Under the pieces are notes generated by a model. It saw nothing but the letters and a program-made list of their open reading frames with translations. It had not been told where the DNA came from and did no database searches. From the NCBI GenBank assembly GCA_021413825.1, contig JAIOPQ010000012.1, forward strand, positions 1-64,000: DNA of 64,000 nt, read 5' to 3'. Below, piece after piece: positions 24,127-43,319 of this stretch (its first letter is position 1; every line of letters begins with the position of its first letter). The position numbers were made by a program, and so were the translations under genes. Source of the stretch: Spirochaetia bacterium. Lineage in GTDB: Bacteria > Spirochaetota > Leptospiria > Leptospirales > Leptonemataceae.

Positions 24127-25443
24127 ATGAAGTTTCTTCCTATTATACTTCTTCTATTGGCCCCGGGTTGCTTCTGGGGCACTAGAAACGGAACAAGCGA
24201 TCTTATGGATCTGGAAATTCGCCAGGACGGGCGCATTCAAATCTATTCGCTCAAGAAGGTTTCTGCAAAACCAGAAGGACCAACCCTGCTCGGAGGAAGA
24301 TCGCAAAGGCCGCTTGCAACAGGGCTTGATGCGCTTGCTGAAACCGATTTTGAATTGCTCCGCGGAAAAAACTTCGCACTACTTACGAATGCAACGGGAC
24401 TCAATCGTGAGCTTGAGCCAGGAATTGAGTTGATGATGCGCGCAGGTATTAGGCCACAGTTGCTATTTGAACCAGAGCATGGAATTTTTGGTGCAGCAGA
24501 TGCAGCGGGGCCGGATGGAATTCGAGTCGATCCACAGACAGGATTGCGCATCATGAGCCTCTACAGTTCGCAGCGCAGGCCACCAGCGTACGTGTTTGCG
24601 GGGCTGGACTACCTGGTTGTAGATATTCAAAACCTTCCAGTGCGCTGTTACACCTACGCAAGCACTTTGACCTATTTGCTTGAGACAGCGGCGCAAACTG
24701 GAACTCCGGTTCTAATTCTGGATCGGCCAAATCCATTTGGATTCATGCGTGCAAAGGGACCGTATCCGCGCGAGGAGTTGCGCAGCTTTGTAGGATACGC
24801 GCCTGTTCCGTTTCTATATTCGCTCACAGTTGGTGAATATGCACTCTTCATCTCAGAAGAAATCTTACCCACCCTCAAACTTACAGTCCTGCGTGTAGGT
24901 GGTTATTCCAGACAAGACACGGACGCTTCCTTGAGGAATTCCTGGATCAATCCGTCACCAAACATTCCATCGCCTGAAAGTGCTCTGGTTTACACCGGGA
25001 TGGTTTTCTTTGAAGGAACGAACGTTAGCCTCGGTCGAGGTACTACAAGGCCGTTTATCTATTCTGGCGCGCCCTGGATGAGGTCAGCAGAGGTAGTCGC
25101 AGAGTTCCGGAAACTACAACTGCCCGGCGTTCAAATTGCTTCTGTGGTTTTCACGCCGACCTTCTCGCTTTATACTGGAATTTCCTGTTACGGAGTTCAA
25201 CTGCATCCGGTTTCCGTTGATTTTGATCCAATCCGGACCGGATACGAACTTATGCGAATCATCCACCGGCTTCATCCAGGGCAGTTTAGCTTTACAGGCG
25301 GAAATTTCACAGATCGTCTCTGGGGCAGCGAAGGGTATCGCACGGCAGTTATGGACGACCTATCTTACAAGATATTCGAACGCACCTGGATCAGTGACAG
25401 TGAAAACTTTGAAGATTGGATGAAGAATTACCGTTTGTACTAA
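24127..25443 (+). CDS. DUF1343 lipoprotein, exo-beta-N-acetylmuramidase NamZ-like
   Basis: A 438-residue protein with a lipoprotein signal (lipobox APGC, Cys about residue 15). It carries the DUF1343 signatures FALLTNATGLNREL, LLFEPEHGIFGAADAA, VVDIQNLPVRCYTYASTL, LDRPNPFG and EGTNVSLGRGTTRPF. Characterised members (NamZ of Bacillus) release terminal N-acetylmuramate from peptidoglycan fragments, so a cell-wall recycling role on the periplasmic side is likely. Its TAA stop is the first codon of the left copy of the 59-bp direct repeat, so it marks the left chromosomal flank of the island. Confidence 0.88.
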   Translation: MKFLPIILLLLAPGCFWGTRNGTSDLMDLEIRQDGRIQIYSLKKVSAKPEGPTLLGGRSQRPLATGLDALAETDFELLRGKNFALLTNATGLNRELEPGIELMMRAGIRPQLLFEPEHGIFGAADAAGPDGIRVDPQTGLRIMSLYSSQRRPPAYVFAGLDYLVVDIQNLPVRCYTYASTLTYLLETAAQTGTPVLILDRPNPFGFMRAKGPYPREELRSFVGYAPVPFLYSLTVGEYALFISEEILPTLKLTVLRVGGYSRQDTDASLRNSWINPSPNIPSPESALVYTGMVFFEGTNVSLGRGTTRPFIYSGAPWMRSAEVVAEFRKLQLPGVQIASVVFTPTFSLYTGISCYGVQLHPVSVDFDPIRTGYELMRIIHRLHPGQFSFTGGNFTDRLWGSEGYRTAVMDDLSYKIFERTWISDSENFEDWMKNYRLY

Positions 25444-25499
25444 ACGATACCAGGGAAACTGCAGAATCCTTCCAGGTAACGTCGCTTAGCCAGACTGCT
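25441..25499. repeat. Left copy of the 59-bp direct repeat bounding the 14.8-kb island
   Basis: The sequence starting TAAACGATACCAGGGAAACT and ending TTAGCCAGACTGCT matches the copy at 40214-40272 in the same orientation, with differences only at offsets 33, 36 and 55 (56 of 59 identical). It begins at the DUF1343 stop codon and ends inside the last codons (Q-S-G-stop) of the cyclase gene. It resembles an attachment-site pair. Confidence 0.92.
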
Positions 25500-26709
25500 T
25501 TCCATCAAGGATGTACACTGGCATCGAACCTTTACCCTTCACTTCGATAGATCCGCGAGCAGTAAACGCATACTCGTGCTTCAAAATATCGAAGACTGCT
25601 TGAGTTACCTGAATCTGTCCGGCAATTCCATGCGATTCCATTCTACTGGCTGTATTAACAGCGTCACCCCAGAGATCGTACGCAAACTTCTTTTTTCCAA
25701 TTACGCCGGCAACAACCGGACCTGTCTGCATTCCGACTCGTAATCTCAGATCATGCCCAAAACCGCGGGCCTCGTGGAATATTTGCATCATGCCAAGCGC
25801 CAGATCTGCCATTGCCTGGCAATGATCTGCACGTGGGCGCGGTACTCCGGCTGCTACCATGTATGCATCACCAATCGTTTTTATTTTTTCAAGACCTGAG
25901 CGATCCGTTAGTACATCGAACCTGGAAAAGATATCATCTAGCAATCGAACAAGATCATCCGGCGAAAGTTTCTCGGACAGGCCGGTAAAATTCTCAATGT
26001 CAGAAAATAGTATGGTCGCCGATTCAAATCTATCAGCGATAGAGCGTGGATTCTCTTTTAGCAAAGTTACAATTTCATCCGGCAGAGTATTCCGCAATAG
26101 GTTTTCTGCCTTCTCCCTTTCTCGAGCCAGATTCATTTCGGAATCACGGTATGTGACAAAGCCATAGTACAGAAATCCGAACGTGATAACAGAGAACCAG
26201 AATATGACCGAGGAACGCACGGTCGGCAAGATAGCAGGCGGAATCGCAATGACTGGTGCACCTTCCCGGAATTCAAGATAGACCAGCGCCACCACACTTA
26301 GCCCGACCATGACAAACATGAGCCTGCGCTCTTCATGTGGAAAATAGTAGAACGCCCCAATTGCTACCGCAGGCATGAGGAACTGTGCGTATGTTTCTGT
26401 TCCGGCAAGAATCGTGCTGATCAGAATATTATTGAGACCGGAAAATGCAAAGATTACCCGTGCCAATGTATGTTTGCGCAAAGCTGAACAAAGGAGAACC
26501 AATCCCTGCAAGGCAAGCATGAGCGCGGAAGACCATACGAATGGGGTAGTGCCGAATTCGCGAAAATACCAGACCAGGGGCAAAAGGCTCAACTGCACCG
26601 GGATTACGACTGCAACAAGCGCATTGAGGACTATAACATTCTTACGGTGTCCGGGATCGAGTCCCTCATGAGTTCCGATTCGGAGATATTTCCGCCATAG
26701 TTGCATCAC
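25486..26709 (-). CDS. Membrane-bound class III adenylate cyclase
   Basis: A 407-residue protein. About six transmembrane helices (residues 28-190) form a membrane input domain, followed by a short coiled coil and the cyclase domain (about 225-400). Metal ligands are in ATILFSDIENFT and KTIGDAYMVAAG. Substrate-selecting Lys (KTIGD) and Asp (YDLWGDAVNTASRM) indicate ATP, and the transition-state Asn and Arg are present. It should make cAMP. It ends inside the left direct repeat and follows the PilZ-reductase fusion by 37 nt, so it is likely the third gene of that operon. Confidence 0.92.
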   Translation of the reverse strand: MMQLWRKYLRIGTHEGLDPGHRKNVIVLNALVAVVIPVQLSLLPLVWYFREFGTTPFVWSSALMLALQGLVLLCSALRKHTLARVIFAFSGLNNILISTILAGTETYAQFLMPAVAIGAFYYFPHEERRLMFVMVGLSVVALVYLEFREGAPVIAIPPAILPTVRSSVIFWFSVITFGFLYYGFVTYRDSEMNLAREREKAENLLRNTLPDEIVTLLKENPRSIADRFESATILFSDIENFTGLSEKLSPDDLVRLLDDIFSRFDVLTDRSGLEKIKTIGDAYMVAAGVPRPRADHCQAMADLALGMMQIFHEARGFGHDLRLRVGMQTGPVVAGVIGKKKFAYDLWGDAVNTASRMESHGIAGQIQVTQAVFDILKHEYAFTARGSIEVKGKGSMPVYILDGKQSG

Positions 26710-26746
26710 CTTTGAATATTCTGATGCTCAGAATCCGCAATCGAAT

Positions 26747-29461
26747 TCAAGATACCGGATCAAACAATTGGACCAAGCGTGAGGCGTTATCGTAGACATC
26801 GGGAAGAAAAGCAAAGTCCAGCAGCCCCGAGGCCAGGAGATACAAATTCAAACGCAAGGTAACAAACAATAGTACATTCAACGCAAGGATAGAATTGAAT
26901 TCAACAGAATCCAGCTCCTGGCCTGTTGCGACCTCAAGAGATTTTCTGTAATCATCGACCATGGTTCGAATCTCGGAATCCGATGCTTGCTTGAGGGTAT
27001 AGAGTAGAAACTCAGCACAGTCATACTGAGGATTCTGAATCTTGCATAATTCCCAATCGTATACGACAAGCTTGCCCTGGCGCAGACATAGGTTTCTTGG
27101 ATTAAAATCGTTGTGTGAAAGTGTCTGATGGTAATTTTTCATGCGGACGAGATTTGCTTCGAATTGATCAAAGAAGCGACGCAACCTACCAAATAGATCT
27201 GGACTAATCAGGTCAGCTCGTCGGTCGTGATTGAACTCAGTTAGCTGCCAGAGCGCCGCCCGGGCCTCAACCAACTCCGGAACCTGAAATCCTGAAACCG
27301 TCTTCAGGTTAAGATTTGCTCCGGCCCAATATCTGCTCTGCAAATGAGTCAATTGTTCGAGTGTCGATGCAATATCCTTAGTATCCCATGAGTGCCCTTC
27401 TGAAACACTGCTATAGTAATCGAGATCAGATAGATCTTCCATTAAGATTGCGTACAATTGCCGCTCTTCATCTGCAATTAGCCCAAGGATTTGCGGAGAA
27501 TACTGGCGCATGATCGGGTCGGTGCTGGCATACACTTCAATTTCACGCAAATGACTTTCTGAGAATCCAAGGACTCCCGCGGACGCTGCCAGTCGATCGG
27601 CCAGCTGCTCCTCCCCCAACAAGCGAATCAATGCTACACCAAACTCGATTATATCCGTATCTACATTCTTGATCTTGAGAACGACGGGCAACTCTCTGGC
27701 CCCATTTTCAGGATCGTTTATGCTCAGGGTATACCTGTAGATACCGGAAACCCCCGAGCGAGTTTTGTCGAATAGTTTTGTTATAATACTTTGATTGGAC
27801 GTTAGCTGGCGAGGTTCGCAGCCAGTGATCTTGCCAGCTTTGCTTCCGATCATCGATTGAAAAAACTTTGCATCGATCTGCGAACGAGAGAATGATTCCG
27901 GCCTATTGCGACCAAGCTTTTCATGTGCTTTAACAAATTCGTTCGTAGTGGTCGCGCTCACTGTGGACAAATCGAGCGCAAGGCAGGTTGCAGCAATAAT
28001 CTCGGCAAACCGAAACGCCTTACCCGATCCAAGGCAACCCAACATATCCAGGCAATCGTGCTGCGCCGGTAGCATTGTGCCGCCACCAACCGTACCAATC
28101 ACCAGGGAGGGAAGGTATGCAGTTGCGACAATCTGACCTTTATAGCCACGGATCTTAATAAATCCGGCGGATGATTCATGCACGCACGCAAGATCCTGTC
28201 CAGTGGCCGCGAAAATCCCCGCAATTACGTTTGAAAAGTTAACGTTAGGGCCGTTGGTCATCCCAATCATCAAACATCCTGATTCCGCAGACGCGATCAC
28301 TCGCAGTAATTTTTCAGAATCGACCCGAAGAATTCGACGGAGAATTTTTTCCGGTAGGGTAACCTCGGCCATTACGCCAATTCCGCGTCCCATGATAAAA
28401 TTCTGGATGTTCGACTTCTTATCGCCGGACATATTCCCTTCAATACTGTAGAATTCATATTGAATGGATCTATCATCTTGAACGGAGCTCTGTATCAATT
28501 CACAACACGCCCATGTGCAAACAGTCGTCATGTTCTGTCCTGCTGCGTCCCCCGTGGAATAATAGAACTGCACATGAACTGAACTACTAAAAATGAAAGT
28601 TTTAACCAGTTGCAATTTTGCTACTGATGACATGGATTGAACTTTTTGTGAGAGTAAATGGAAATGATTGTTAATCCATCGTTCCAGATTAAGTGCGCCA
28701 TCGATTGTCTCGCAGAAAAAAAGCGGTGAGCGCACCATTGTCTGTCGAAACACGCGTGTAATCGCACCGCCAGCCAGACTGATTGCATATGCACCCCGAG
28801 AAATTGAACTTACCAGGGCACCTTCCGAAGTTGCAATTGGAACCGAGATATGGCCTTTTGCATAAGTTCCGTTGATCAAGACAGGGCTCGTCACCCCAAC
28901 AGGTATCTCTACAGAACCTACGTAATTTTCAATGTTTCCCATCAGGGAATACGGATTGAGATTGGAGCGGGGCAGATTCTTTAATGGTGCATGTGTAGCA
29001 TTGCGAATCCAGTTGAGGCGATCCTCTATAGCCGGGCCGGAATAGTGCTCCTTACCGCGGACAAAAGGTAACTTGCGCTCCGTGAACGCACCTGCTTCGA
29101 GTACGCGCGGGCCTTCCGCTACTATAGTAACGATCTGCTGCAAGCGCTCGATTTGACTCTCCGATTCTACTTGAATCCCAATGTGGGTTCGATCCGTCGA
29201 ATAGTCACGTCTGATAGTCGCAAGGCGCATGCTTTCCATCTTGAAAGCATCTTCCGCCTTACCAATATAAATAACGTCAACCGGCATTGAAATGTCTGGT
29301 ATGACGGATCCTTCCAGGACAATTCCAAGGCCTTCCAGGGAAACGTCACTCAGGGCGCCAATGAATGAACGTTGATTTTGAAAGAACAAAATCGAAGGCT
29401 GACGACCCGCATGGAAGTAGGACCGCGGGGTCGCACGCCTCTTACTGGCTTTAGTTGCCAC
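26747..29461 (-). CDS. PilZ - HMG-CoA reductase - aminoglycoside/choline-kinase-like fusion
   Basis: A 904-residue three-part protein. Residues 1-110 form a PilZ domain with both c-di-GMP contacts: RATPR (R9-xxx-R13) and DVSLEG (D39-x-S41-xx-G44). Residues about 140-515 match class I HMG-CoA reductase: ENYVGSVEIPVGV, TSEGALVSS (E213), STGDAAGQNM, GDKKSNIQNF (K348), AATGQDLACV (D423), GTVGGGTMLP and FVKAHEKLGRNRP (H513), so all four catalytic residues are kept. Residues about 545-880 form an APH/choline-kinase fold with SHNDFNPRN (H783, D785, N790) and YDWEL (D802). No frameshift is visible. It may reduce an acyl thioester and phosphorylate a product or sugar, under c-di-GMP control; the true substrate is unknown. 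It lies 14 nt after an MMPL exporter gene. Confidence 0.88.
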   Translation of the reverse strand: MATKASKRRATPRSYFHAGRQPSILFFQNQRSFIGALSDVSLEGLGIVLEGSVIPDISMPVDVIYIGKAEDAFKMESMRLATIRRDYSTDRTHIGIQVESESQIERLQQIVTIVAEGPRVLEAGAFTERKLPFVRGKEHYSGPAIEDRLNWIRNATHAPLKNLPRSNLNPYSLMGNIENYVGSVEIPVGVTSPVLINGTYAKGHISVPIATSEGALVSSISRGAYAISLAGGAITRVFRQTMVRSPLFFCETIDGALNLERWINNHFHLLSQKVQSMSSVAKLQLVKTFIFSSSVHVQFYYSTGDAAGQNMTTVCTWACCELIQSSVQDDRSIQYEFYSIEGNMSGDKKSNIQNFIMGRGIGVMAEVTLPEKILRRILRVDSEKLLRVIASAESGCLMIGMTNGPNVNFSNVIAGIFAATGQDLACVHESSAGFIKIRGYKGQIVATAYLPSLVIGTVGGGTMLPAQHDCLDMLGCLGSGKAFRFAEIIAATCLALDLSTVSATTTNEFVKAHEKLGRNRPESFSRSQIDAKFFQSMIGSKAGKITGCEPRQLTSNQSIITKLFDKTRSGVSGIYRYTLSINDPENGARELPVVLKIKNVDTDIIEFGVALIRLLGEEQLADRLAASAGVLGFSESHLREIEVYASTDPIMRQYSPQILGLIADEERQLYAILMEDLSDLDYYSSVSEGHSWDTKDIASTLEQLTHLQSRYWAGANLNLKTVSGFQVPELVEARAALWQLTEFNHDRRADLISPDLFGRLRRFFDQFEANLVRMKNYHQTLSHNDFNPRNLCLRQGKLVVYDWELCKIQNPQYDCAEFLLYTLKQASDSEIRTMVDDYRKSLEVATGQELDSVEFNSILALNVLLFVTLRLNLYLLASGLLDFAFLPDVYDNASRLVQLFDPVS

Positions 29462-29475
29462 AGGTATATCTCAAA

Positions 29476-32256
29476 CTATGACCGGTCCCAGGGGAACTTG
29501 AACTGCGGATTCATATCAAAATTAGCCCAGCGTAGAACCGCTGGGAGTATTGTTAATGCCGCACAGGTCGACACAGTCATTACTACGGCAATCAGAAGAC
29601 CAAAGTGGAAAATCGGTGTGAAGCTGGAGAACATCAAAACAGAGAATCCGAAGATTAGCGCGATTGAAGTGTAAATAATTGCAATACCAGCAAGGGAATG
29701 CGTGGCTTTGACAGCCTCCGTTGCCGAACCAGTAGACTCGCGCTCACGCTTATATGTGAGAAGATAATGGCACGTATCATCAATGCCGATACCGAGAGCA
29801 ATGGATGTGAGAATAGCTTTTGCAATATCCAGGGGAATTCCGGTAAAACCCATAACTCCAAAAACCACCGTAACTGTAACTGTAATTGGTATGAGACTTA
29901 CGAGTGCGACTTTGATGTTCCGAAACTCATAGAGCACAATGAGACCCAGGAGAAGTGTAGTCAAAACAAGCGTTGCAATCTGCCCCTTGACTACGTAATC
30001 ACCCAGTAGAACAAAGTTAATTGGCTCTCCTACCACAAGAACCTTATATCCATTTGGATTTGGAGCTTCTTTGAAGTAACCTTCAATCTTGTGCCAGGCA
30101 TTCCGACTCATGGCGTTACTCATGGAACGGAATTCGTTTTCTCCGATGCGGACCAGAACATTCACGCGCCGATACTCACGATCCACCATACCCTCAAGAA
30201 CATCGGGTCTGCCGTCGGAGTTTTCATCTTCACCGGAAAATAACTCTACGTAGTCTGCAACTGTTGTGGGATCCTCTGGAACACGATAGAAAGCTGGCTT
30301 CTCGTCGTTGAAGGCTTGATGCATTCGCTTAACGTGTTCAGAGAAACTCATTGTGTGTAAAATATTATCATTGTCCCGGCGATCCTTGTCTTTGGCCCAG
30401 GATCTGAAGTCTTCAATGTACTTTAGAAATGCGGGATCAGTAACCCCGTATGGTTTCCCAGAATCTACTACAACATTGATGACCAGGAATCCATTGAAAA
30501 GCAAGCCTATCTTCTTAACGGCGCGACGAATGTAGTGCCCTTCATCAAAGTAGGATGTGGCCGACGTTTCTGTTGTCATCCTGGAGATACCTACGCCGCT
30601 CATCACCATGACCAGAATCCAGACGAGGACAACCGGCTTAGCGAATGCAGTGGATAGATGAGCCAGGTAATCGATGAAACGACGCAACCAGATATTGGCA
30701 CCCTTGAATCCTTCCACTCGTCTCGTACTACGCTTGCCTTCAGGGAGAAGGGCCAGGACGGCAGGAATTAAAGTACATGCCAGTACTCCCGCTGCAATCA
30801 CTCCAAACGCAGCGCCAAAGCCAAAGTCCCTAAGGCCGTCGACATAGTTAATCAGGAGAGTTGCAAAACCAAGAAAGGTTGTTGAAGCTGCAAGGAAGAC
30901 AGTGCTAGTGATTTCAGATAGAGACTCAATAATCCCGGCCTTCCCCTGGGCCGCTCCACCGCTGGAAAGGTAGTGGTTTAACACATGGATTGCATAAGAG
31001 CTGCCTACCGCTATCATGATTGGCGGCATAATTGAAGTAAAAATATTAAAGCGAACGCCAGCGAAACCCATGAACCCCAGGGTCCAGAGCGTCCCAAGAA
31101 TAATTGTCAAGAACGGCAGTGCCACACCCAGAACGGTGCGAAAGTTGAAATATAGTACAATGATGATGAACAACAAAGCGATTGGCATGTATTTCCGCAG
31201 ATCAGCTCGATTGCTTTCATTCATGATCTTAGTAAAGATAAGGGGACCCATGAGTAGAATCTTCACAGGCTTCACGTCGTGACGGTTAAAAAATTCCCAG
31301 AGGTAATCTGTAATCGGTTCATAATTCTTCTGTGGTTCAAGGAGCAGCACAATTCCAAGTGCTTGTATGTTCTTGTCCTTTCCAAGCGAGTAGACAAGCG
31401 ATTCCATGACGGGGTTTCTTTTTAGTGAGGCAATATAGGCTTTTCTAGCCCGGTCGTCTTTAGGAAGAATGGCTTTGCCATTTCCATCTTCAGGTAAAAT
31501 TCCTTTAAGACCTAACTTCCCATCATTTCCAGAAATCTCTTCTGCCGTAACTGGATCGTACATCAGGCGAATCGCTTCCACGGACTTCATGAGATAAACT
31601 TCTTCCCACGCATCCAGGAAACGCCCAAACTCTTTCTTTTCCAGTTTGCGATTCATGTCGACCGCATCGATTTTCTTCCAGCGGAGAATGGTCTGCAATT
31701 GGGACTGGGCAATAGGATCGAGACTGGCGGACAATTCTGCAAGAGAAAGAGGCTTGTATTCAGAAAGATCGTATTTACGTTTCTGGCGAATAGGCTGGCG
31801 AAAAGAATGTTCCTCCAGACGAACGTTAGGATCCCAGAGCTCATCCGGTCCGATTGGTTTGATGGGTAGAGGTGCAATCTCTTCTTTAGATTCCGTTACT
31901 TTGGCACCACTTAGGTTCAGTATCGTCGTAAGGCGAGAATCCTCGAGTTTGCTGTTAAAATTTCTCAACTCATCAAGTTCATTTGATATTGTTTGAATTT
32001 TTTCAAGAACTGGTAAACTAATGATTTCTCCCGAATCTGCTTCGATAGCTGCAAGCATGAACGATTGATTATCACCAAATTCATACTTTGCTCGCTCTCC
32101 CATTTGATACAATGGATCGCCTTTAGGCATGATGACTCCCGTGCTACTGTCGAAATGCAAGCGCGTTAATCCGAATACTTGAATTGCACTAATGACTGCG
32201 ATGATCACAATCATCCGGATTGGATTATCTACCGAAAATCGAATCAACCGTATCAC
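29476..32256 (-). CDS. MMPL/RND-family lipid exporter
   Basis: A 926-residue inner-membrane protein with two halves of six helices, each preceded by a large periplasmic loop. Sterol-sensing/MMPL patches are seen in MIAVGSSYAIHVLNHYL and ALGIGIDDTCHYLLTYKRE. The GTG at 32256 is chosen because a strong GGAGG (plus-strand CCTCC, 32264-32268) lies just upstream; a frame from 32385 would overlap the divergent promoter region. Such proteins export lipids or hopanoid-like compounds together with LolA-like and outer-membrane partners, both of which are found in the divergent operon here. First gene of the leftward operon. Confidence 0.92.
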   Translation of the reverse strand: MIRLIRFSVDNPIRMIVIIAVISAIQVFGLTRLHFDSSTGVIMPKGDPLYQMGERAKYEFGDNQSFMLAAIEADSGEIISLPVLEKIQTISNELDELRNFNSKLEDSRLTTILNLSGAKVTESKEEIAPLPIKPIGPDELWDPNVRLEEHSFRQPIRQKRKYDLSEYKPLSLAELSASLDPIAQSQLQTILRWKKIDAVDMNRKLEKKEFGRFLDAWEEVYLMKSVEAIRLMYDPVTAEEISGNDGKLGLKGILPEDGNGKAILPKDDRARKAYIASLKRNPVMESLVYSLGKDKNIQALGIVLLLEPQKNYEPITDYLWEFFNRHDVKPVKILLMGPLIFTKIMNESNRADLRKYMPIALLFIIIVLYFNFRTVLGVALPFLTIILGTLWTLGFMGFAGVRFNIFTSIMPPIMIAVGSSYAIHVLNHYLSSGGAAQGKAGIIESLSEITSTVFLAASTTFLGFATLLINYVDGLRDFGFGAAFGVIAAGVLACTLIPAVLALLPEGKRSTRRVEGFKGANIWLRRFIDYLAHLSTAFAKPVVLVWILVMVMSGVGISRMTTETSATSYFDEGHYIRRAVKKIGLLFNGFLVINVVVDSGKPYGVTDPAFLKYIEDFRSWAKDKDRRDNDNILHTMSFSEHVKRMHQAFNDEKPAFYRVPEDPTTVADYVELFSGEDENSDGRPDVLEGMVDREYRRVNVLVRIGENEFRSMSNAMSRNAWHKIEGYFKEAPNPNGYKVLVVGEPINFVLLGDYVVKGQIATLVLTTLLLGLIVLYEFRNIKVALVSLIPITVTVTVVFGVMGFTGIPLDIAKAILTSIALGIGIDDTCHYLLTYKRERESTGSATEAVKATHSLAGIAIIYTSIALIFGFSVLMFSSFTPIFHFGLLIAVVMTVSTCAALTILPAVLRWANFDMNPQFKFPWDRS

Positions 32257-32379
32257 GTTATATCCTCCAGGGAACCCAATCGCTTGCTTCATCTTTCGAT
32301 CGTCAAGTATCAAAGGCATGAGCGGACAAAAAAAACTTCTTTTAGTTGACAAAGACGAAAAAGCAATCGATTCGCAGAA

Positions 32380-33942
32380 ATGCATGGCGAGATCGTCGAG
32401 AAGCTCTCGGGAAATATACTTGATAAACTGATATCAATAGCCTCTACATCCTCAGACCACCCCGCATTGATTGATCCGTACGCCGCCAATGGCTCGAAGT
32501 ATCGTTCGTTTGATGAGCTTTATACTGACGTAGCCATCGTCGCATATCGGATGCGCGAGAAAGGCATCCGTGTGGGCGATAGAGTGCTGATCTTCATTCC
32601 ATATACATATGAATTGTTCGTTGTATTGCTTGCCGTTACATATTCAGGCGCTGTTGCTGTGTTTGCAGATATCGCCGCTCACGGGGATATGATCAACCAG
32701 GTCTGCTTATCTGCGAAGCCGCGCGCATTCATTGGCATCCTTGCGTCGTTCGCGTTGATGAAAAATTCTCAGTTGCGTCGTGTTCCCATAAAGCTCTGGC
32801 ATAAATCACTGCTTTCGGGTAGAAAACCGACTTCGCCCAAGATGGACACGGTGCCTGTGGATTCTGAAAGTTCTGCTCTCTTCACTTTCACGAGCGGAAC
32901 TACAGGAAACCCAAAAGCTGCAGATCGATCGCATGCATTTCTGTGGCGGCAACATAAGGTGCTCGCAGCTCATCAGCATTTTGACAGAGACGAAGTCGAC
33001 TTAACTCTCTGGCCAGTATTCGCTTTGAGCAATCTGGTTCAGGGAGTAACGAGTGTAATCCCACATTTCAATTCTCGCAAACCCGGCTCAGCAAAGCCTG
33101 AGGTAATTCATCGACAGATAGTGGATTCAAAAGTAACTGCAATGACAGGTCCGCCGATTTTCTTTGAGCACCTGGCAGAATACTGGCAAACAAGGACCCC
33201 GCCGGAAACACTCAAGCGCGCCTCCGTAGGTGGAGCACCTGTATTTCCTGCACTTGCGCAGAAGTTGGTTCAAGTCCTCGGTGATCGAAGCCTTGAGGCT
33301 ATTTACGGGTCCACGGAGGCTGAACCCATGACCAGCCTTACTCTCGCTAAGCTCGCTGAGGATGCCACGTTTGGCGGAGTCCCTGTAGGTGAGCCCCTAC
33401 CCGAAACGACTCTGCGGATTATGGCCGAAATCGAGACCGCGAGCAACTCATTGGGTCGCGTGGCGGAGGAAGGGGATTCAGGTGAAATCGTCGTCGCGGG
33501 ACCACATGTTCTGGATAGATATTTTCAATCGGATGAAGACTACAAGCTGACGAAGGTCCATGCGGAAGGGCGGCTCTGGCATCGAACGGGCGACATCGGC
33601 TATCTTAAAGGGGGCAAGGTCACATTACTCGGTCGCCTTGCGTTTGGGATCAAAGCAGGCGAGAAGACGGTCTATTCATTCCCTTTCGAGAAACGAATGA
33701 AGCAGGAGCCAGACGTTATTCGCAGTGCACTGGTCGGATCTAAAGGCAATGCTGCGGGCTTTGTTCAGCTGCGGAAAAAAACCAGGAACCTGCGCGTGGC
33801 AGAGATTGAAGCCATTGCCCGGGACACGCTCGAGAAACTGGACCTTCCCGCAGCGCGAATTATAGCAAATACGGTGGAAATTCCAACCGATAAGCGGCAT
33901 AACTCGCGCATCGAATATGCAACCCTTTTGAGGCAGGTTTGA
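32380..33942 (+). CDS. AMP-forming acyl ligase, OleC/fatty-acyl-AMP-ligase-like
   Basis: A 520-residue ANL-superfamily enzyme. Motifs: P-loop FTFTSGTTGNPKAADRSH, YGSTEAEP and HRTGDIGYLKGGKVTLLGR. The C-terminal part (TDKRHNSRIEY) aligns with the PxDxRHNAKI tail of OleC-like beta-lactone synthetases, but the usual catalytic lysine position is Arg. This may mean adenylation is slower or that another half-reaction is carried out. No carrier protein or OleA/B/D is adjacent. First gene of the rightward operon; the start is an ATG without a strong ribosome-binding site. Confidence 0.85.
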   Translation: MHGEIVEKLSGNILDKLISIASTSSDHPALIDPYAANGSKYRSFDELYTDVAIVAYRMREKGIRVGDRVLIFIPYTYELFVVLLAVTYSGAVAVFADIAAHGDMINQVCLSAKPRAFIGILASFALMKNSQLRRVPIKLWHKSLLSGRKPTSPKMDTVPVDSESSALFTFTSGTTGNPKAADRSHAFLWRQHKVLAAHQHFDRDEVDLTLWPVFALSNLVQGVTSVIPHFNSRKPGSAKPEVIHRQIVDSKVTAMTGPPIFFEHLAEYWQTRTPPETLKRASVGGAPVFPALAQKLVQVLGDRSLEAIYGSTEAEPMTSLTLAKLAEDATFGGVPVGEPLPETTLRIMAEIETASNSLGRVAEEGDSGEIVVAGPHVLDRYFQSDEDYKLTKVHAEGRLWHRTGDIGYLKGGKVTLLGRLAFGIKAGEKTVYSFPFEKRMKQEPDVIRSALVGSKGNAAGFVQLRKKTRNLRVAEIEAIARDTLEKLDLPAARIIANTVEIPTDKRHNSRIEYATLLRQV

Positions 33943-33943
33943 A

Positions 33944-35425
33944 GTGTCCAGGTGGCTGGTATCATTCGCCCTTTTAGCAGTTTTGGCGTTACAGGCTGAG
34001 CCAGAAACCGAAGCCCCCGATTCAGCCCCAGAAGCGGTCCTTGAAATGCAACCGACTTCAGAAGATCCTGGAAGGACTTCTCAAGAAGAACCTAAACCTG
34101 AGGAAACGCCCACGGAAGGAGCGCTTCAGCATGATATATTTGGATTCGTTGAGATGGAATACTTCCGCGAAGCATCGGGCAAACGAAAACGCGCTAAGTA
34201 CGAAACAGTCAAATTTGAAACCAGATTGAATCTCAAGACGGATTTGAAATGGAACGGTGCCGAGTTTCACGGGGAAGGTGATCTATATGTGTATCCTGGC
34301 CCTGAAGATGATATAAAAAATCCACAATCAGATGGAAGACCGGAATTGCGTCAGGCCTATTTTAAAATTGGAGACAAGACGCAACTGCGTGCCGGAATCC
34401 AAGCCTTCCAATGGGGTGTTGCAGATAACTTTAGAGTTACCAACTATCTGGATCAAAACGATCTGCGTGAACTATTCGCAAAAGATCGTGCGGATCGAAC
34501 CCGGGGCGTCCCAGCTTTCAGCTTCAAACAACTAATAGGGGATTTTGCTCTAGATGTTGGTGTTACGCCTCTGCACAGTCCAACGCTATTTCCGCCGAAG
34601 GATTCCTACTGGGAGTTTATTCCCAATAAGGCAAATCTTGTTGTGCTTCAAACTGGCCTCCCCCCTGCTTTCGCTCCTGTATTCTATTTTCGTTCTCCCT
34701 TTAAACTCGCGAAGGATTTCGTTTCAGACGATGGCACCGTTCAACAACAGAACATAGTTGCGGATCCTAAACTTGAGAAATTGCGACTGCCCAGGAAAGG
34801 AAAGAATGCAAGTGGAGCCTTGCGGTTTGGCGGAACCGTCGGAAGGTTCGATGCGCATCTTTATTACTTCAACGGCATAGATAGAAATATTCTACTAAGG
34901 CCTCGGTTTGTATTCACCAAACCGGTTAATGGATTGTATAAGATCGAAAGCATTCAACTGGATCCGGTTCAAGCTAAGGTCGAGAGTGGAGGCGAAGATG
35001 TTGCCTTTACTATGGATTAGTTGAGTTTTCGGGCTGAGGTTTCCTGGACTCCAAAAAAAAATGCCGTAAGCCGCAACTCGCAATTAGATCAGACAAAACT
35101 GATAAAGATACCTCATATAGCCTACTCGCTGGGCTTTGATTATAATGTGAGGGCAGACACTGGCTTCCTTCTGGCCGAATGGTTCATTCTATTTCTGGGA
35201 TATCGCGATTCCTTTCTGGATTCGCGAATCCTTTTTACGATCGGCGCATTCATAAGGACGGTTGGACATGGTGGGACTTTGCAGAACACCGAATTCGGAT
35301 ACGATTTTCAAAACGGCTTGACCGCAATTTGCGGGGCGCAGTTTTTTCTTGGGAAGCGAGATCCGTTGCTTTCTCCATACAGAGACCACGATTACGGTTA
35401 TTTTAGAGTGCGGATGAATTTTTAA
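33944..35425 (+). pseudogene. Outer-membrane beta-barrel (DUF1302-like) gene with an in-frame TAG
   Basis: A signal peptide (MSRWLVSFALLAVLALQA, GTG start) is followed by an acidic Pro/Glu linker and a beta-barrel with LRAGIQAFQWGVADNF, typical of DUF1302-like channel proteins. A single TAG (35018-35020, codon 359) interrupts it: the frame continues directly after it with LSFRAEVSW and ends with the barrel-type C terminus YFRVRMNF. The two parts are in the same frame, with no insertion or deletion, so one base change would restore a 493-residue protein. Either a nonsense mutation, suppression, or a sequencing error. The gene would be the outer-membrane exit of the MMPL pathway. Confidence 0.82.
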
Positions 35426-35435
35426 GGGGCATTTA

Positions 35436-36656
35436 ATGAGTAACGAACCACAATCACAAAACCGGGGCAGCTTGATTCTGTACTACTTGAATGCCTATCT
35501 AACGCTGCTCGCAGCAAACATGTTTCTCTATGGAATAGTTATCTTCACAACGCAGATGACTGGCTCAAGCGGATTCACCGGCATCGTTTTTCTTACAACG
35601 TTTCTGCTGCCGCTGCTATTTAGCATACCCGCCGGAGCTCTCATAGATTCTCGTTCAAGAAAAGTCATTCTATTCATTTCCCAGGTGATTTTCGCGATAT
35701 CAGCCCTTGCACTTTTCCTCTTAGTCCACGGGGAGATTCTAACATCATCCACGCGCTGGCTATTGATTGGAATTGCGCTGGCGAACGGCGCAGGATATAC
35801 TTTAATGATACCGGCGCGACTTGCTATACTTGGAGATCTTACTCCACAAGAAAATGTTGGAAAAGCCACAATCCTCCTGAACGTGCTGGTTATTCTGGGA
35901 TTCAGCAGCGCACCGGTTGTTGCCGGACAAATTCGGCAGAACTTTCCTTTTGACTTTCTCTTTCTAGCGATTGCCGGGATCTTTCTGCTTGCTTTTCTAA
36001 TTCTCTTGCTGGTGCGCACTCATTCGACAATCATACGCACAGGAGCGTCAACACCGACTCTAGTTGCATTGCGTGAATCTTTTGGATACATTGGAAAGAA
36101 CCCCCTCGTAAAGCAATTGCTCATCTTCACTTCAGTCGCACTTTTTATGCTGGGACCAATTCAGGTGATCTTCCCGCGGTTTGCTCAGTCAATTCTAGAA
36201 ATGTCTGAGAGTGGTCGCGGAATTTTTCTAAGCGCACTGGGGATTGGCCTGTTTACTGGCTCAGTCGTTGCAAACATACTGAACAAAGGTAAGAAGCGCG
36301 GCTGGATTATTCTGGCAACCGCTCTAGTTGCTGGTCTTGCAACGGTGGCCTTTGCAAATAGTAGACTTGTGGCACCTGCAATGATTCTGCTTGGAACGGT
36401 GGGGCTATGCGGTGGAGTCGTGAACAGCCTGGTGCCGGCTGCATTGCAGCATCATGTGCCAAACGAACTTCGAGGTCGTGTAATGAGCGTATACAGTCTC
36501 GTTTTCCAGATCACTCCGGCGGTTTCAGGCGCGTTATCCGGCATCCTGGCTGATAAGCTGGGAATCGCGGCTGCGGTCGCCTACAGTGGATTCGCCGTTG
36601 CGGCCCTGGTTCTGCTCGGTGGACTCACTATGCGCTCAATCCGAACATACGATTAA
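35436..36656 (+). CDS. Major facilitator superfamily transporter
   Basis: A 406-residue polytopic protein with 12 predicted helices and a motif A relative in IPAGALIDSRSRKVILF. The overall shape is of the MFS drug/lysolipid type (similar to LplT or enterobactin exporters). It has a good AAGGGG ribosome-binding site 7 nt before the ATG and follows the barrel gene by 10 nt. In this cluster it could flip a precursor or move a small building block across the inner membrane. Confidence 0.88.
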   Translation: MSNEPQSQNRGSLILYYLNAYLTLLAANMFLYGIVIFTTQMTGSSGFTGIVFLTTFLLPLLFSIPAGALIDSRSRKVILFISQVIFAISALALFLLVHGEILTSSTRWLLIGIALANGAGYTLMIPARLAILGDLTPQENVGKATILLNVLVILGFSSAPVVAGQIRQNFPFDFLFLAIAGIFLLAFLILLLVRTHSTIIRTGASTPTLVALRESFGYIGKNPLVKQLLIFTSVALFMLGPIQVIFPRFAQSILEMSESGRGIFLSALGIGLFTGSVVANILNKGKKRGWIILATALVAGLATVAFANSRLVAPAMILLGTVGLCGGVVNSLVPAALQHHVPNELRGRVMSVYSLVFQITPAVSGALSGILADKLGIAAAVAYSGFAVAALVLLGGLTMRSIRTYD

Positions 36657-36678
36657 CAATAGAACAAGGGGGAAGTAA

Positions 36679-37413
36679 ATGAAAGTAGCTCTCAGAACAA
36701 TTGCCCTGGCTCTGACTCTGACCGCCACCGCGATCACGGCGGAAGATGGAGCCTCCATCATGAAAAAGAACGATGCCCTTCCTGATGCGCGAACCACAAA
36801 AATCGACGCTACCCTCATTATTCTTAAAGGGGGGCAAAAACAGGAGAAAACGTTCCAGGTTTTCGCAAGGCGATACCCGACAGAGATGCGGACACGTTTT
36901 AAATTTCTAAAACCAACACGTATTGAAATGCTCAGTTGGAATCTTTACGGGAAAGACGATCTGCAATGGGTCCGCTTATCAAGCGGCAGTGTCCGTATGA
37001 TTGCATCATCGGACCGTGGAAGCGCCTTTGCCAACTCCCATTTCTACTACGAGGACATTAACTCAAGGGATGTAGATCAATTTCACTATAAGCTGCTAGG
37101 CGACGTAAACTGGGGCGGACACGATTGCTACAAAGTTGAATCTGTAAAAGCAATCGGGGCAAAGGTCTATGACAAGTCAATTGTCTATGTCAGGAAATCG
37201 GATTTCTTTGTGGTTGGAGAAGAGTTCTTTGAGGATGGAAGACACACCAAAACTCTGAAGTTTGAGGAAATCGGAATTCTGAAAGGATACATAACGCCAA
37301 GAAGAATCGTAATGGAACGCGCTGATGGGTCAGGAAAGAGCATCTATCAGATAGATAAGATCGAATACGACACAGCTTTGCCTGATACCATGTTTAACAA
37401 AGAGAATCTTTGA
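36679..37413 (+). CDS. LolA-like outer-membrane lipoprotein-sorting protein
   Basis: A 244-residue exported protein with a signal peptide (1-21, ITA-ED). The mature part has the LolA_like half-barrel pattern: DATLIILKGGQKQEKTFQVF, MRTRFKFLKPTRIEML, YKLLGDVNWGGHDCYKVE and a C-terminal GYITPRRIVMERADGSGKS. Proteins of this family occur next to MMPL exporters and DUF1302-like barrels and are thought to carry lipids across the periplasm. All three are encoded in this cluster. Confidence 0.85.
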   Translation: MKVALRTIALALTLTATAITAEDGASIMKKNDALPDARTTKIDATLIILKGGQKQEKTFQVFARRYPTEMRTRFKFLKPTRIEMLSWNLYGKDDLQWVRLSSGSVRMIASSDRGSAFANSHFYYEDINSRDVDQFHYKLLGDVNWGGHDCYKVESVKAIGAKVYDKSIVYVRKSDFFVVGEEFFEDGRHTKTLKFEEIGILKGYITPRRIVMERADGSGKSIYQIDKIEYDTALPDTMFNKENL

Positions 37414-37414
37414 A

Positions 37415-38164
37415 ATGCTCAGAGTAATCCTCGTCTCATCAGAGGTTACGTACGTTCCAGACAATTACGCTGCAGCGTTTAATACAATACTGCGCCAGTG
37501 TCCGGGTCGAGTTGTAGCTCTGGTTGCTTTGAAAGTAGTCAACCTGGCCTTGCTGGCTACAATCGCAAAGCTGTGGTTCGCCGGTTGCCACGGAGTAGCA
37601 GGCGCCCTCGCAAACAACATAGTCTCAAATCCCGCGAAAAAGCGTAGGCTCCAGTTTGCGGAGCATGGCGCGGCCTTCATCGAAGCTACAACCATGAACG
37701 ATGCCGGAATGATCGAATGGGTGCGCGCAAACAGAATTGATCTGATAGTAAACATGAGGACCAGATGCATCTACAGAGAAGAGATACTGAGAACACCGCG
37801 CCTGGGCTGCGTCAATATTCATCACGGGCTACTCCCAAAGTACAGAGGACTGCTTTGCGATGCGTACGCCCTGTTTGAGGGAAGAGAGGCAGGATTCACC
37901 GTTCACTCGATGAATGCCAAAATCGACGATGGTGGCATTCTTAAACAAGCGGTCGTAGAAAAGATAGACCCCACCGTTTACACATCGCATGTGCAGAAAA
38001 GCTCCGAGATTGAGGGAGGAACAATCGCTGATCTAATTTTGCAAATAGAAGAGCTAGGCCAATTGCCGCCGACTATTCCAAATAAATCAGACGGAATCAT
38101 TCATACGCGAACACCTTCGCTCGAAACGATTCGTAAGATGCGTAAGACCGGATTGAAATTATGA
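37415..38164 (+). CDS. Formyltransferase-fold enzyme
   Basis: A 249-residue protein with the N10-formyl-THF-dependent formyltransferase catalytic pattern: Asn and His in CVNIHHGLLPKYRG (N134, H136) and Asp in NAKIDDGGIL (D171), as in Fmt and GART-type enzymes. The Fmt C-terminal tRNA-binding domain is missing. It is followed by a 4-nt overlap with the DUF3419 gene. In pathways such as sugar or lipid formylation, related enzymes modify an amino group, so an amino-lipid or amino-sugar target is plausible here. Confidence 0.8.
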   Translation: MLRVILVSSEVTYVPDNYAAAFNTILRQCPGRVVALVALKVVNLALLATIAKLWFAGCHGVAGALANNIVSNPAKKRRLQFAEHGAAFIEATTMNDAGMIEWVRANRIDLIVNMRTRCIYREEILRTPRLGCVNIHHGLLPKYRGLLCDAYALFEGREAGFTVHSMNAKIDDGGILKQAVVEKIDPTVYTSHVQKSSEIEGGTIADLILQIEELGQLPPTIPNKSDGIIHTRTPSLETIRKMRKTGLKL

Positions 38165-39255
38165 CAGAACATCAATATTTCTCCAAACTCAACTACAGCA
38201 TGGCAAATGAAGATACTGCGCTGGAACTTGCTCTGGTTAAGGAACACGCATGTGAGAAACTGGTGATTGTAGCAGGAAGCGGGAGCCGTTCATTACCTCT
38301 GGCAGCAGGAGACAGCGTAAAAGAACTTTTTCTCGTCGACCTTGCCCGCGAACAGGTCGATCTCTCAAAGTTCCGATTGGAAGCATTTAAGTCCCTGACG
38401 CGCGAGAAGTTTTGTCTGACCATGGGATACCCTCCGTTTGACCCGTTGAACGACATTGAAGAAAGGGAAACAATTATCTTGAACATTGCAGAGAAACTCC
38501 AATTGAGAAGTTGGCTGGAGTTTCTGGGACATAGCGAAGCCTGGAAGGGAATGGCCTACTGGGGAAAGTGGGAGAAATCCTTTGGCACGCTAAACAAAAT
38601 AGCCCGTTTCTTCCTTGGGAACTTGTGCGACCAGATCATGGAATTTACGGATATTGAGGCACAGCGTGCATTCTATCGAACTAAGTTCAGGAAGCGCTGG
38701 AAGTTTGTAGTGTTCATCCTGGGAAATTCCTCTGTATTCAATGCCCTACTCTATCGTGGACACTTCGTTAAAAAAAATATAAAGGCGTCCTACATTAACC
38801 ACTACATGCGCTCATTTGATCATCTCTTTGAGAGCGGGCTTGCGCGAGATAATTTTTTTCTGCAGTTGTGTGTGCTTGGTCGTCTTTACTTCCCGAGTGG
38901 CTTGCCGCTTGAAGCACAAAGCAACGCATACGATGCGATACAATCAGGTCTTACCAAAGCCCGATGCGAAATCCATCAGCGTAGTGTTTTCGATTTCCTA
39001 TCGGAAGCAAGCGATGTTGACTTTGTTTCTCTGAGCGATGTTCCTTCTTATTTGGGCCCTCCTGAAGAGGATCAATTCTTGCAAAAGATTTTGCCCGGCC
39101 TGCGGTCGAAGGCAATAGTCGCAGTCAGATTCTACCTTCGTATTCCGCGAGGGCTGGATGCAACCGGATATGCGGAAATAACCGAAAGATATACTGATTT
39201 GATTTCATCAGAAAAGATGCAAGTCTATGACGTTAGGATCTATCAAAAGTCATAA
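38161..39255 (+). CDS. BtaA-like (DUF3419) aminocarboxypropyl transferase
   Basis: A 364-residue protein of the DUF3419 family, whose known member BtaA moves the 3-amino-3-carboxypropyl group of SAM to diacylglycerol in betaine-lipid synthesis. Seen are FSKLNYSMANEDTALELALV, the SAM-binding loop VIVAGSGSRSLPLAA, LFLVDLAREQVDL and LSDVPSYLGPPEE. It has no BtaB-type methyltransferase neighbour, so the product may stay as a primary amine that the coupled formyltransferase could use. This pairing is inference. Confidence 0.8.
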   Translation: MTEHQYFSKLNYSMANEDTALELALVKEHACEKLVIVAGSGSRSLPLAAGDSVKELFLVDLAREQVDLSKFRLEAFKSLTREKFCLTMGYPPFDPLNDIEERETIILNIAEKLQLRSWLEFLGHSEAWKGMAYWGKWEKSFGTLNKIARFFLGNLCDQIMEFTDIEAQRAFYRTKFRKRWKFVVFILGNSSVFNALLYRGHFVKKNIKASYINHYMRSFDHLFESGLARDNFFLQLCVLGRLYFPSGLPLEAQSNAYDAIQSGLTKARCEIHQRSVFDFLSEASDVDFVSLSDVPSYLGPPEEDQFLQKILPGLRSKAIVAVRFYLRIPRGLDATGYAEITERYTDLISSEKMQVYDVRIYQKS

Positions 39256-39297
39256 GTTTCGAATTAACGACCCTTGAGAATAAGGTCAGGAGTTGAT

Positions 39298-40248
39298 ATG
39301 GAAAGCTGGGTAAAAGATTGTATCAGGACCGGTCGACAGTTTCATTTCACAAAAGTCAATCGTTGGCTGCACAATCTGTTGAACACTTCTTGCTTATTGC
39401 TTAGCTTGAGTTCCATTGTTTTTTTATTGCTCGTAGCTCTGTATAATCCTGCCAATCCATTGATACTACTGCTTAGTCCTATTCTAGGCGTGCTCCTATT
39501 CTCAATCTATATTCTAGTCTTGCATGAAGCCGCTCACAGTATGTTCTGGATTGCGGGAAATAGCCGGTTGCGGGATACATTGAACATTCGCGCAGGCCAG
39601 GTCATGTCATTACTCCTCTTCCAGGATTTTCAAAGCGATTGGCGAGTGGGGCATATACGCCATCACCAATTCCCTCTGGAAGAAGGAAAAGATCCACAGG
39701 TTGCTGCAGATGGCATTTGTGGAACTGCCCTCCTGAAGCAACTACTGCTCCTTGCACTGATTCCTGGAGTTGCCCTTGCCCTGAATCGCAAGAAACGCGC
39801 CAATGGGCGAAATAAGCTCCCGATTCTCCTTTCAGTTGCATTCTGGATTATGATCGCGGCATTGCTCGGTTATTTTGGTGGAATACTTCCCGTCCTTACC
39901 TTATTCTATGGATTCAATTTTCTGATGGCGATCAACTTCAATCGAATCGCGCAGGAGCACGGTTCTGGTTTAAAATACGAGAGGGAAGCCATCCTCAGGT
40001 CAAGGACCTATCGATTCCCGCTGATCAATCTGATTTTCCCTTACTTTGTCAACTACCACTTTGAACATCATCTGATCATGACGATTCCGTGGTACCTGCT
40101 TCCAAAATATTCGCGTGCAATAGCCGGCACAGTGCCCGAGCATATCCGGGAGCACATTGCCACAACCGGATTCCGTCAAGTCGGCAAGCAACTGATGGCC
40201 AGGCGGCACAACTTAAACGATACCAGGGAAACTGCAGAATCCTTCTAG
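39298..40248 (+). CDS. Membrane fatty-acid desaturase
   Basis: A 316-residue membrane-bound di-iron desaturase or hydroxylase. The three histidine boxes are clear: HEAAH, HIRHH and HFEHH, with helices between. The ATG at 39298 is chosen because AGGAG lies 6 nt upstream (39287-39291); the TTG at 39274 has no such site. The last ten codons lie in the right copy of the 59-bp repeat (NDTRETAESF). Last gene of the rightward operon. Confidence 0.88.
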   Translation: MESWVKDCIRTGRQFHFTKVNRWLHNLLNTSCLLLSLSSIVFLLLVALYNPANPLILLLSPILGVLLFSIYILVLHEAAHSMFWIAGNSRLRDTLNIRAGQVMSLLLFQDFQSDWRVGHIRHHQFPLEEGKDPQVAADGICGTALLKQLLLLALIPGVALALNRKKRANGRNKLPILLSVAFWIMIAALLGYFGGILPVLTLFYGFNFLMAINFNRIAQEHGSGLKYEREAILRSRTYRFPLINLIFPYFVNYHFEHHLIMTIPWYLLPKYSRAIAGTVPEHIREHIATTGFRQVGKQLMARRHNLNDTRETAESF

Positions 40249-40272
40249 CTAACGTCGCTTAGCCAGATTGCT
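40214..40272. repeat. Right copy of the 59-bp direct repeat
   Basis: It matches 25441-25499 at 56 of 59 positions in the same orientation. Here it codes for the C terminus of the desaturase, contains its TAG stop (40246-40248; the left copy has CAG) and runs into the C-terminal Q-S-G of the 7TM sensor gene on the other strand. Confidence 0.92.
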
Positions 40273-42464: not shown

Positions 42465-43319
42465 TTACTCGGAAGCGCTTCCTTGTGAATTTGTAGCCAT
42501 GGGCGGCGATACACCGGCCAGTCCGCCTGCAGAACGCTCCGCACGGCCAGCTACTTCATCAAAATAGTCATCGTATTCTGGTCTGTTTGTGCCGCAGATT
42601 CTGTCCCAGAAATTAAAGTAGAGACTGTAGTTACCATGCGTACGCGAATGATGAAGGTTATGATGCGTCGAGGTATTGATCCATTTTGTAATCACACCGC
42701 GCGTGAATCCCTTTGGAAAAAATTCATATCCTGAATGCCACCAGATATTCAGAATCATTGCATAAAATGTGTGAAAGATTACAACGCTGCGCTCAACAGG
42801 CAAGACCATCGCGAAGAGCAGTAAATAGATTCCCTCAAGAACTGCTTCCAGCGGGTGAAAGGCATACGCGGCAAAAGGGGAAGGATTGATTGAGCGATGA
42901 TGTGTAACGTGAACCAATTTGAAAAGTGCCGGCGTGTGCATCGCGCGATGCGCCCAGTAGAACCAGGTTTCATGCCAGATCGTTAATAGAATGAATGATA
43001 CAGGCAAATACCATATACCGTATTTTTCAGCGCCTATGTAGATTTTTGTAAGTCCCAGATTTGCAAATAGAATTGAGAGCGTGCCCAGGCCGGCGAAGAT
43101 GACAAGCGTTCCAAACGAGTAACGGATCTCATACCATATGCGTTCTGCTTTAGGGAAAGATTCTAGAATTCTGTTGGATTGGAAGGTTTTCTTTCCCAGA
43201 ACCCACAGAATAAGGAAGGCCAGCCCGGCCAATGGATAGTAGCGCACAAAGTTCATGCCGAGCATATACGCGCTAACTTTTTCAAAACAGGCAACATTGA
43301 CACCGCACATAAAGTTCAT
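42465..43319 (-). CDS. Sterol-desaturase/fatty-acid-hydroxylase family membrane protein
   Basis: A 284-residue membrane di-iron enzyme. The clustered histidines are visible: HETWFYWAHRAMH, HVTHHRS and HHNLHHSRTHGN. The family includes fatty-acid hydroxylases, sterol desaturases and the plasmalogen-type desaturases. It is downstream of an AraC regulator gene (73 nt apart), which may control it. Start could be one of several nearby Met codons (MNFM or MLGMNF). Confidence 0.85.
   Translation of the reverse strand: MNFMCGVNVACFEKVSAYMLGMNFVRYYPLAGLAFLILWVLGKKTFQSNRILESFPKAERIWYEIRYSFGTLVIFAGLGTLSILFANLGLTKIYIGAEKYGIWYLPVSFILLTIWHETWFYWAHRAMHTPALFKLVHVTHHRSINPSPFAAYAFHPLEAVLEGIYLLLFAMVLPVERSVVIFHTFYAMILNIWWHSGYEFFPKGFTRGVITKWINTSTHHNLHHSRTHGNYSLYFNFWDRICGTNRPEYDDYFDEVAGRAERSAGGLAGVSPPMATNSQGSASE

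Follow-up and report, generated by a model that had tools for sequence, protein, structure and literature searches.

Two divergent operons in a Spirochaetia bacterium (GenBank GCA_021413825.1, contig JAIOPQ010000012.1) raise the question of whether an MMPL exporter, a reductase-kinase fusion and a run of acyl-chain, amine and carrier genes act as one unit, and of what such a unit would make. The original prediction, made from the 64,000 nucleotides analysed here (positions 1 to 64,000 of the contig, hereafter 'the window'), had read them as a route for making and exporting a lipid. Our main reading, to which we give a probability of roughly 0.5, is that the locus produces an amine-bearing lipid derived from a fatty alcohol and exports it, by the route proposed below. 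The parts are known, and the interest lies mainly in the reductase-kinase family (called FcrA-kinase here) and its fusion to a predicted PilZ domain.

Gene organization of the locus

ORF calling and Pfam/NCBIfam searches recovered the nine families named in the original prediction, each in its place (the barrel without a Pfam match), in two tightly packed divergent operons. The extent of the unit had been put at 26747-40248; this block was present, but the unit begins further left, at 25441, and takes in a nucleotide cyclase gene that had been omitted and that falls inside the insertion described in the next section. The features were as follows:

25441..25499, plus strand: left 59-nt direct repeat, sharing 95% identity with 40214-40272; not present at the unoccupied site of G172, a genome of the same genus
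25486..26709, minus strand: membrane-anchored class III nucleotide cyclase (Guanylate_cyc 7.2e-63); closes the minus operon, 37 nt beyond the FcrA-kinase gene
26747..29461, minus strand: 904-aa protein with a predicted PilZ fold, a predicted FcrA-type fatty acyl-CoA reductase domain (HMGR fold; HMG-CoA_red 3.7e-102) and an APH-fold kinase (APH 1.2e-9)
29476..32385, minus strand: MMPL/RND-type transporter (MMPL 9.7e-35; HAE3-like 213 bits, below the cut-off of 351.9)
32380..33942, plus strand: acyl-AMP ligase, PRK09274/OleC-related (AMP-binding 3.6e-43; NF006754 307 bits, cut-off 478)
33944..35425, plus strand: predicted outer-membrane barrel (signal-like hydrophobic N-terminus, terminal Phe; in-frame TAG)
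35436..36656, plus strand: MFS transporter (MFS_1 1.7e-41)
36679..37413, plus strand: LolA-like periplasmic lipid carrier (LolA_like 2.8e-33)
37415..38164, plus strand: formyltransferase (Formyl_trans_N 1.1e-16; catalytic motifs N-x-H and D-x-G present)
38161..39255, plus strand: DUF3419 (BtaA-like) SAM-dependent transferase (DUF3419 2.5e-27, 96.5 bits, cut-off 28.2)
39274..40248, plus strand: membrane fatty-acid desaturase-like oxygenase (FA_desaturase 8.9e-23)
40214..40272, plus strand: right 59-nt direct repeat, the other boundary of the island

The minus operon consists of the MMPL, FcrA-kinase and cyclase genes, with 14 nt between the first two; the true start of the MMPL gene probably lies inside its ORF. 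In the plus operon (ligase, barrel, MFS, LolA-like, formyltransferase, DUF3419, desaturase) no gap exceeded 22 nt, the ligase-barrel and LolA-like-formyltransferase gaps being 1 nt each, and the formyltransferase and DUF3419 genes overlap by 4 nt. The barrel gene is split by an in-frame TAG (35018-35020), which may be an assembly error or true decay, and the frame is open on either side. When the two halves were scanned separately, neither matched any Pfam family at E 0.01, DUF1302 included. Related barrels gave no more than a weak profile match over a short stretch, and the description of the barrel as DUF1302-like was not borne out; its predicted structure (pLDDT 32.7) was too poor for the fold to be read.

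The block is a mobile island

The genes constitute a single horizontally acquired, mobile island of approximately 14.8 kb (25441-40272) with 59-nt direct repeats at both ends, in agreement with the earlier claim that they form a unit. Histidine-kinase and NamZ genes flank the island, and the distance between them is 14.8 kb in the window versus approximately 45 bp and 0.7 kb in the two same-genus genomes compared (G172 and G208, respectively), from both of which the island is absent. The two flanking proteins were 85% and 90% identical between the window and G172, and the DNA alignment to G172 ends at 25426 and picks up again at 40290. Insertion on the lineage of the window is likelier than a recombination between the repeats that removed the island from G172, since no 59-nt repeat is present at the G172 junction. 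The final codons of the desaturase gene fall in the right repeat. No integrase or transposase was seen among island ORFs of at least 120 aa, and the island is unremarkable in base composition. With so clean a presence/absence pattern, the idea of one unit for lipid synthesis and export can be tested directly.

A 14-nt motif within the flanking repeat, AACGTCGCWTAGCC, is located at 25478-25491 and 40251-40264; genome-wide, 16 copies were counted in the source genome, 13 in G172, and none in G208 or in the reversed control. Just beyond the island, a fatty acid hydroxylase-family gene adjoins an AraC regulator (42465-43319), in a region that aligns to G172 and is therefore taken as native.

The reductase domain resembles FcrA, not HMG-CoA reductase

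HMG-CoA reductase (HMGR) is the target of statins, and family models give this label to the reductase-kinase; its residues and gene company point instead to fatty-alcohol lipid chemistry. The HMGR catalytic residues Glu559, Lys691, Asp767 and His866 are kept in the window protein (E213, K348, D423 and H513), whereas the substrate pocket in the window protein and nearly all fusions has E for Ser684, S or A for Lys735 and F for Leu862. Exchange of these three residues for Glu, a small residue and a bulky residue is the pattern of FcrA (Natronomonas and Ca. Promineifilum), an HMGR homologue that reduces long-chain acyl-CoA to fatty alcohol and does not act on HMG-CoA (PMC11948995). The position of Lys735 was assigned here from spacing, Lys795 being printed in PMC11948995. 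The score against the NCBIfam HMG-CoA reductase model (274.7) was well under its cut-off (441.8), and no HMG-CoA synthase was found in the source genome (4.49 Mb, 93.7% complete) by a search that detected the enzyme in 4 genomes as a control. On the pocket residues and the absence of the synthase, the reading as a mevalonate HMG-CoA reductase was rejected. The domain is built as an FcrA-type fatty acyl-CoA reductase, and its residues point to long-chain acyl-CoA reduction as the predicted activity.

The 'reductase/kinase fusion' of the original prediction was present, with C-terminal kinase motifs HNDFNPRN (HxDxxxxN) and YDWEL (DWE) near-invariant across the fusions, although that description was incomplete, leaving out a third, N-terminal domain. 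In a structural model of this domain (pLDDT 80.6), PilZ domains filled all top matches (best E 7.9e-6). The c-di-GMP motif RxxxR...[D/N]xSxxG (DxSxxG) was intact in the window protein and in that of G219, and in no other alignment row tested; no Pfam PilZ match was obtained for the protein. The domain is thus predicted by its modelled fold and motif to be a PilZ domain, which could switch the reductase by c-di-GMP and suggests second-messenger control over lipid making. In sequence pattern it does not resemble the N-terminal extensions that long FcrA-like proteins carry, and the alternative of a Lad domain was rejected in favour of PilZ by fold; Lad occurs in only some FcrA members and is hence not decisive (PMC11948995). 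In its HMGR fold, catalytic residues and pocket, the window fusion is like FcrA; it differs in having the kinase and the PilZ fold rather than Lad or ACP, and F rather than W (both bulky) at the Leu862 position, and the fusions form a separate clade (SH-aLRT 99). Neither a kinase nor a phosphotransferase is mentioned in the main text of the FcrA paper (PMC11948995).

Distribution and gene neighbours of the FcrA-kinase family

A scan of named genomes returned fused relatives from Nitrospirota, Myxococcota, Desulfobacterales, Paenibacillus, Gammaproteobacteria, Streptomyces, Bdellovibrionota and Bacteroidota, among others, so that the family spans many phyla and includes culturable Paenibacillus, Kordia and Photorhabdus. 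It is rare near the source genome: the fusion was found in none of the other genomes among the 48 of its class and in two others of the 296 of its phylum, and there were no relatives in viral contigs. Targeted literature searches returned no account of the cluster.

Neighbours were counted at 50 fusion loci and 28 single-domain control loci. PEP-synthase-like genes adjoined 31 fusion loci and no control, with CarS (25 versus 0), UbiA (18 versus 0) and CDP-alcohol transferase (18 versus 1) following; ligase (8 versus 1), GNAT (9 versus 0) and desaturase (6 versus 0) showed a similar tendency, though the statistics were weaker. MMPL, LolA-like and barrel genes were near the fusion in 3-4 of the 50 loci, without enrichment over the controls (p 0.26-0.41), and a formyltransferase or MFS gene was found at none of the other fusion loci examined. 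In three gammaproteobacterial loci (L051, L053 and L057), LolA-like, barrel, MMPL, UbiA, FcrA-kinase, PEP-synthase-like, GNAT and ligase genes run on the same strand, probably as the result of one event, since their reductase-kinases group together in the tree. Co-occurrence elsewhere, proposed as a check on the original prediction, was partial. Agitococcus, Marinobacter and a Moraxellaceae MAG each pair the reductase-kinase with the ligase and the MMPL/LolA-like/barrel module; in Roseinatronobacter and in one MAG of the Bacteroidia, clusters of this kind include DUF3419. None of the other genomes searched carried all nine genes.

The spirochaete G102 was rejected as a further case of linked export genes: the LolA/barrel pair there lies at least 10 kb away beside ABC-type permease genes, and no MMPL gene was seen. 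Its fusion contig (L039, 1-15000) also carries genes that we read as decarboxylase-like and deoxyhypusine-synthase-like. In another locus (L055, 11725-14505) matches to acyl-AMP ligase, CDP-alcohol transferase and CarS all fall in a single open frame, which strongly hints at one shared pathway for these steps.

The island has no CarS, CDP-alcohol transferase or UbiA gene, and the UbiA genes elsewhere in the source genome look ordinary. No PEP-synthase-like partner was found in the genome, by a query without a positive control of its own, although the family turned up at 31 loci elsewhere. With PEP-synthase-like, CarS and CDP-alcohol transferase genes lacking, the route here may differ, and with the barrel gene also interrupted and the nine-gene set seen nowhere else, the word 'complete' in the original prediction was not supported.

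The BtaA-like protein and the export genes in relation to known systems

BtaA is the first enzyme in betaine lipid (DGTS) synthesis. Its reaction is established for the family (PMC10685587). The window protein belongs to DUF3419, with a SAM motif, and by analogy would carry out aminocarboxypropyl transfer; it scores 96.5 bits against 188.8 for the Roseinatronobacter member, is coupled to a formyltransferase, and has no BtaB methyltransferase among the island genes. No counterpart was found in the other genomes among the 296 of the phylum. A Roseinatronobacter plasmid operon places DUF3419 with an unfused FcrA-type reductase, UbiA, PEP-synthase-like, GNAT and ligase genes, and the same partners occur in the Bacteroidia MAG (G332; L128, 8925-10970), where DUF3419 is fused to a GNAT-like domain. 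The window protein is approximately 21% identical to the FcrA-linked Roseinatronobacter protein and 36% and 34% identical to DUF3419 proteins outside FcrA clusters; being nearer to the latter, it ties DUF3419 to FcrA at the level of the family and not of the orthologue. On Rhizobium plasmid pMK-2 (L131, 4820-10068), KASIII, NAD-dependent oxidoreductase/epimerase, MBL-fold and CoF-synthetase-like genes adjoin DUF3419; in Paenibacillus oenotherae (L043, 17907-22352) these apparently adjoin the reductase-kinase cluster.

The ligase shares the adenylating superfamily with the beta-lactone synthetase OleC, its nearest named group, but scored only 177 and 152 bits against OleC NCBIfam models with cut-offs of 900 and 850, and the island has no OleA, OleB or OleD; an olefin role was rejected on both grounds. 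Similarly, the MMPL protein belongs to the MMPL/RND family of lipid exporters (HpnN, BstA, mycobacterial MmpL), but falls well under the HpnN (88.7, cut-off 751.85) and BstA (24.4, cut-off 1400) cut-offs, and is paired with a PF17131 LolA-like protein.

Proposed pathway and alternatives

We infer the substrates, the product, the order of the steps and the c-di-GMP switch of the following route. The ligase would activate a fatty acid to an acyl thioester, which the FcrA-type domain, perhaps switched with c-di-GMP by the PilZ domain, would reduce to a long-chain alcohol; the fused kinase would phosphorylate this alcohol or a product of it, and the desaturase would modify the chain. The BtaA-like protein would add a 3-amino-3-carboxypropyl (homoserine) group from SAM, and the coupled formyltransferase would cap its amine, although a phosphorylated alcohol is not an obvious BtaA substrate. 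MMPL and MFS would take the product over the inner membrane, the LolA-like carrier would ferry it across the periplasm, and the barrel would deliver it to the outer membrane. Lipid making and export are well supported as the general role, because FcrA-kinase runs with LolA-like, barrel, MMPL and ligase genes in three gammaproteobacteria and DUF3419 joins such clusters twice elsewhere. A bolder version, which we consider unlikely, puts a c-di-GMP-gated PilZ-FcrA-kinase at the head of a mobile pathway whose products, N-formylated alkyl lipids with a homoserine head group, would be a new class with its own inner-to-outer-membrane export; the pathway would then be a single branch of an FcrA-kinase lipid family, large and so far unrecognised, over some ten phyla.

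Other readings were weighed against this route. It is possible, though on balance rather unlikely, that the island encodes a variant of a phospholipid-type pathway, in which the alcohol, once phosphorylated, becomes part of a glycerol ether lipid, with DUF3419 standing in for the CarS/CDP-alcohol head-group module. The FcrA-kinase core is kept with PEP-synthase-like, UbiA, CarS and CDP-alcohol transferase genes over many phyla, the cluster UbiA matches the DGGGP synthase structure alone (weakly, E 0.01), and the joined L055 frame fits such a pathway, whereas the source genome has no PEP-synthase-like partner, the island has neither UbiA nor CarS, and the other UbiA genes are ordinary-looking. 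The archaeal-type ether lipid route (UbiA/DGGGPS, CarS, CDP-alcohol transferase, PSD) is similar in that UbiA, CarS or CDP-alcohol transferase is found in most FcrA-kinase clusters, and PSD in some; it differs in its isoprenoid source, as opposed to the fatty-alcohol source proposed here, and its genes are missing from the island. An exported small signal or surfactant (acyl-homoserine-like) in place of a membrane lipid is improbable: the SAM-dependent transferase, formyl cap, acyl ligase, two inner-membrane exporters, nucleotide cyclase and PilZ domain would all suit it, but the LolA-like carrier and barrel suggest outer-membrane delivery, and the island has no regulator or receptor gene.

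The interrupted barrel and the uniqueness of the full set could also mean that genes were gathered by chance in a decaying mosaic, partly dead; this is still less probable, as all remaining frames are intact with catalytic motifs and tight spacing, and other lineages also have the ligase and export module together with the reductase. A mevalonate HMG-CoA reductase with mevalonate kinase among unrelated neighbours, as the Pfam and NCBIfam calls for the domain would have it, is largely refuted by the FcrA-type pocket, the missing HMG-CoA synthase and the sub-threshold NCBIfam score, and we regard it as very improbable.
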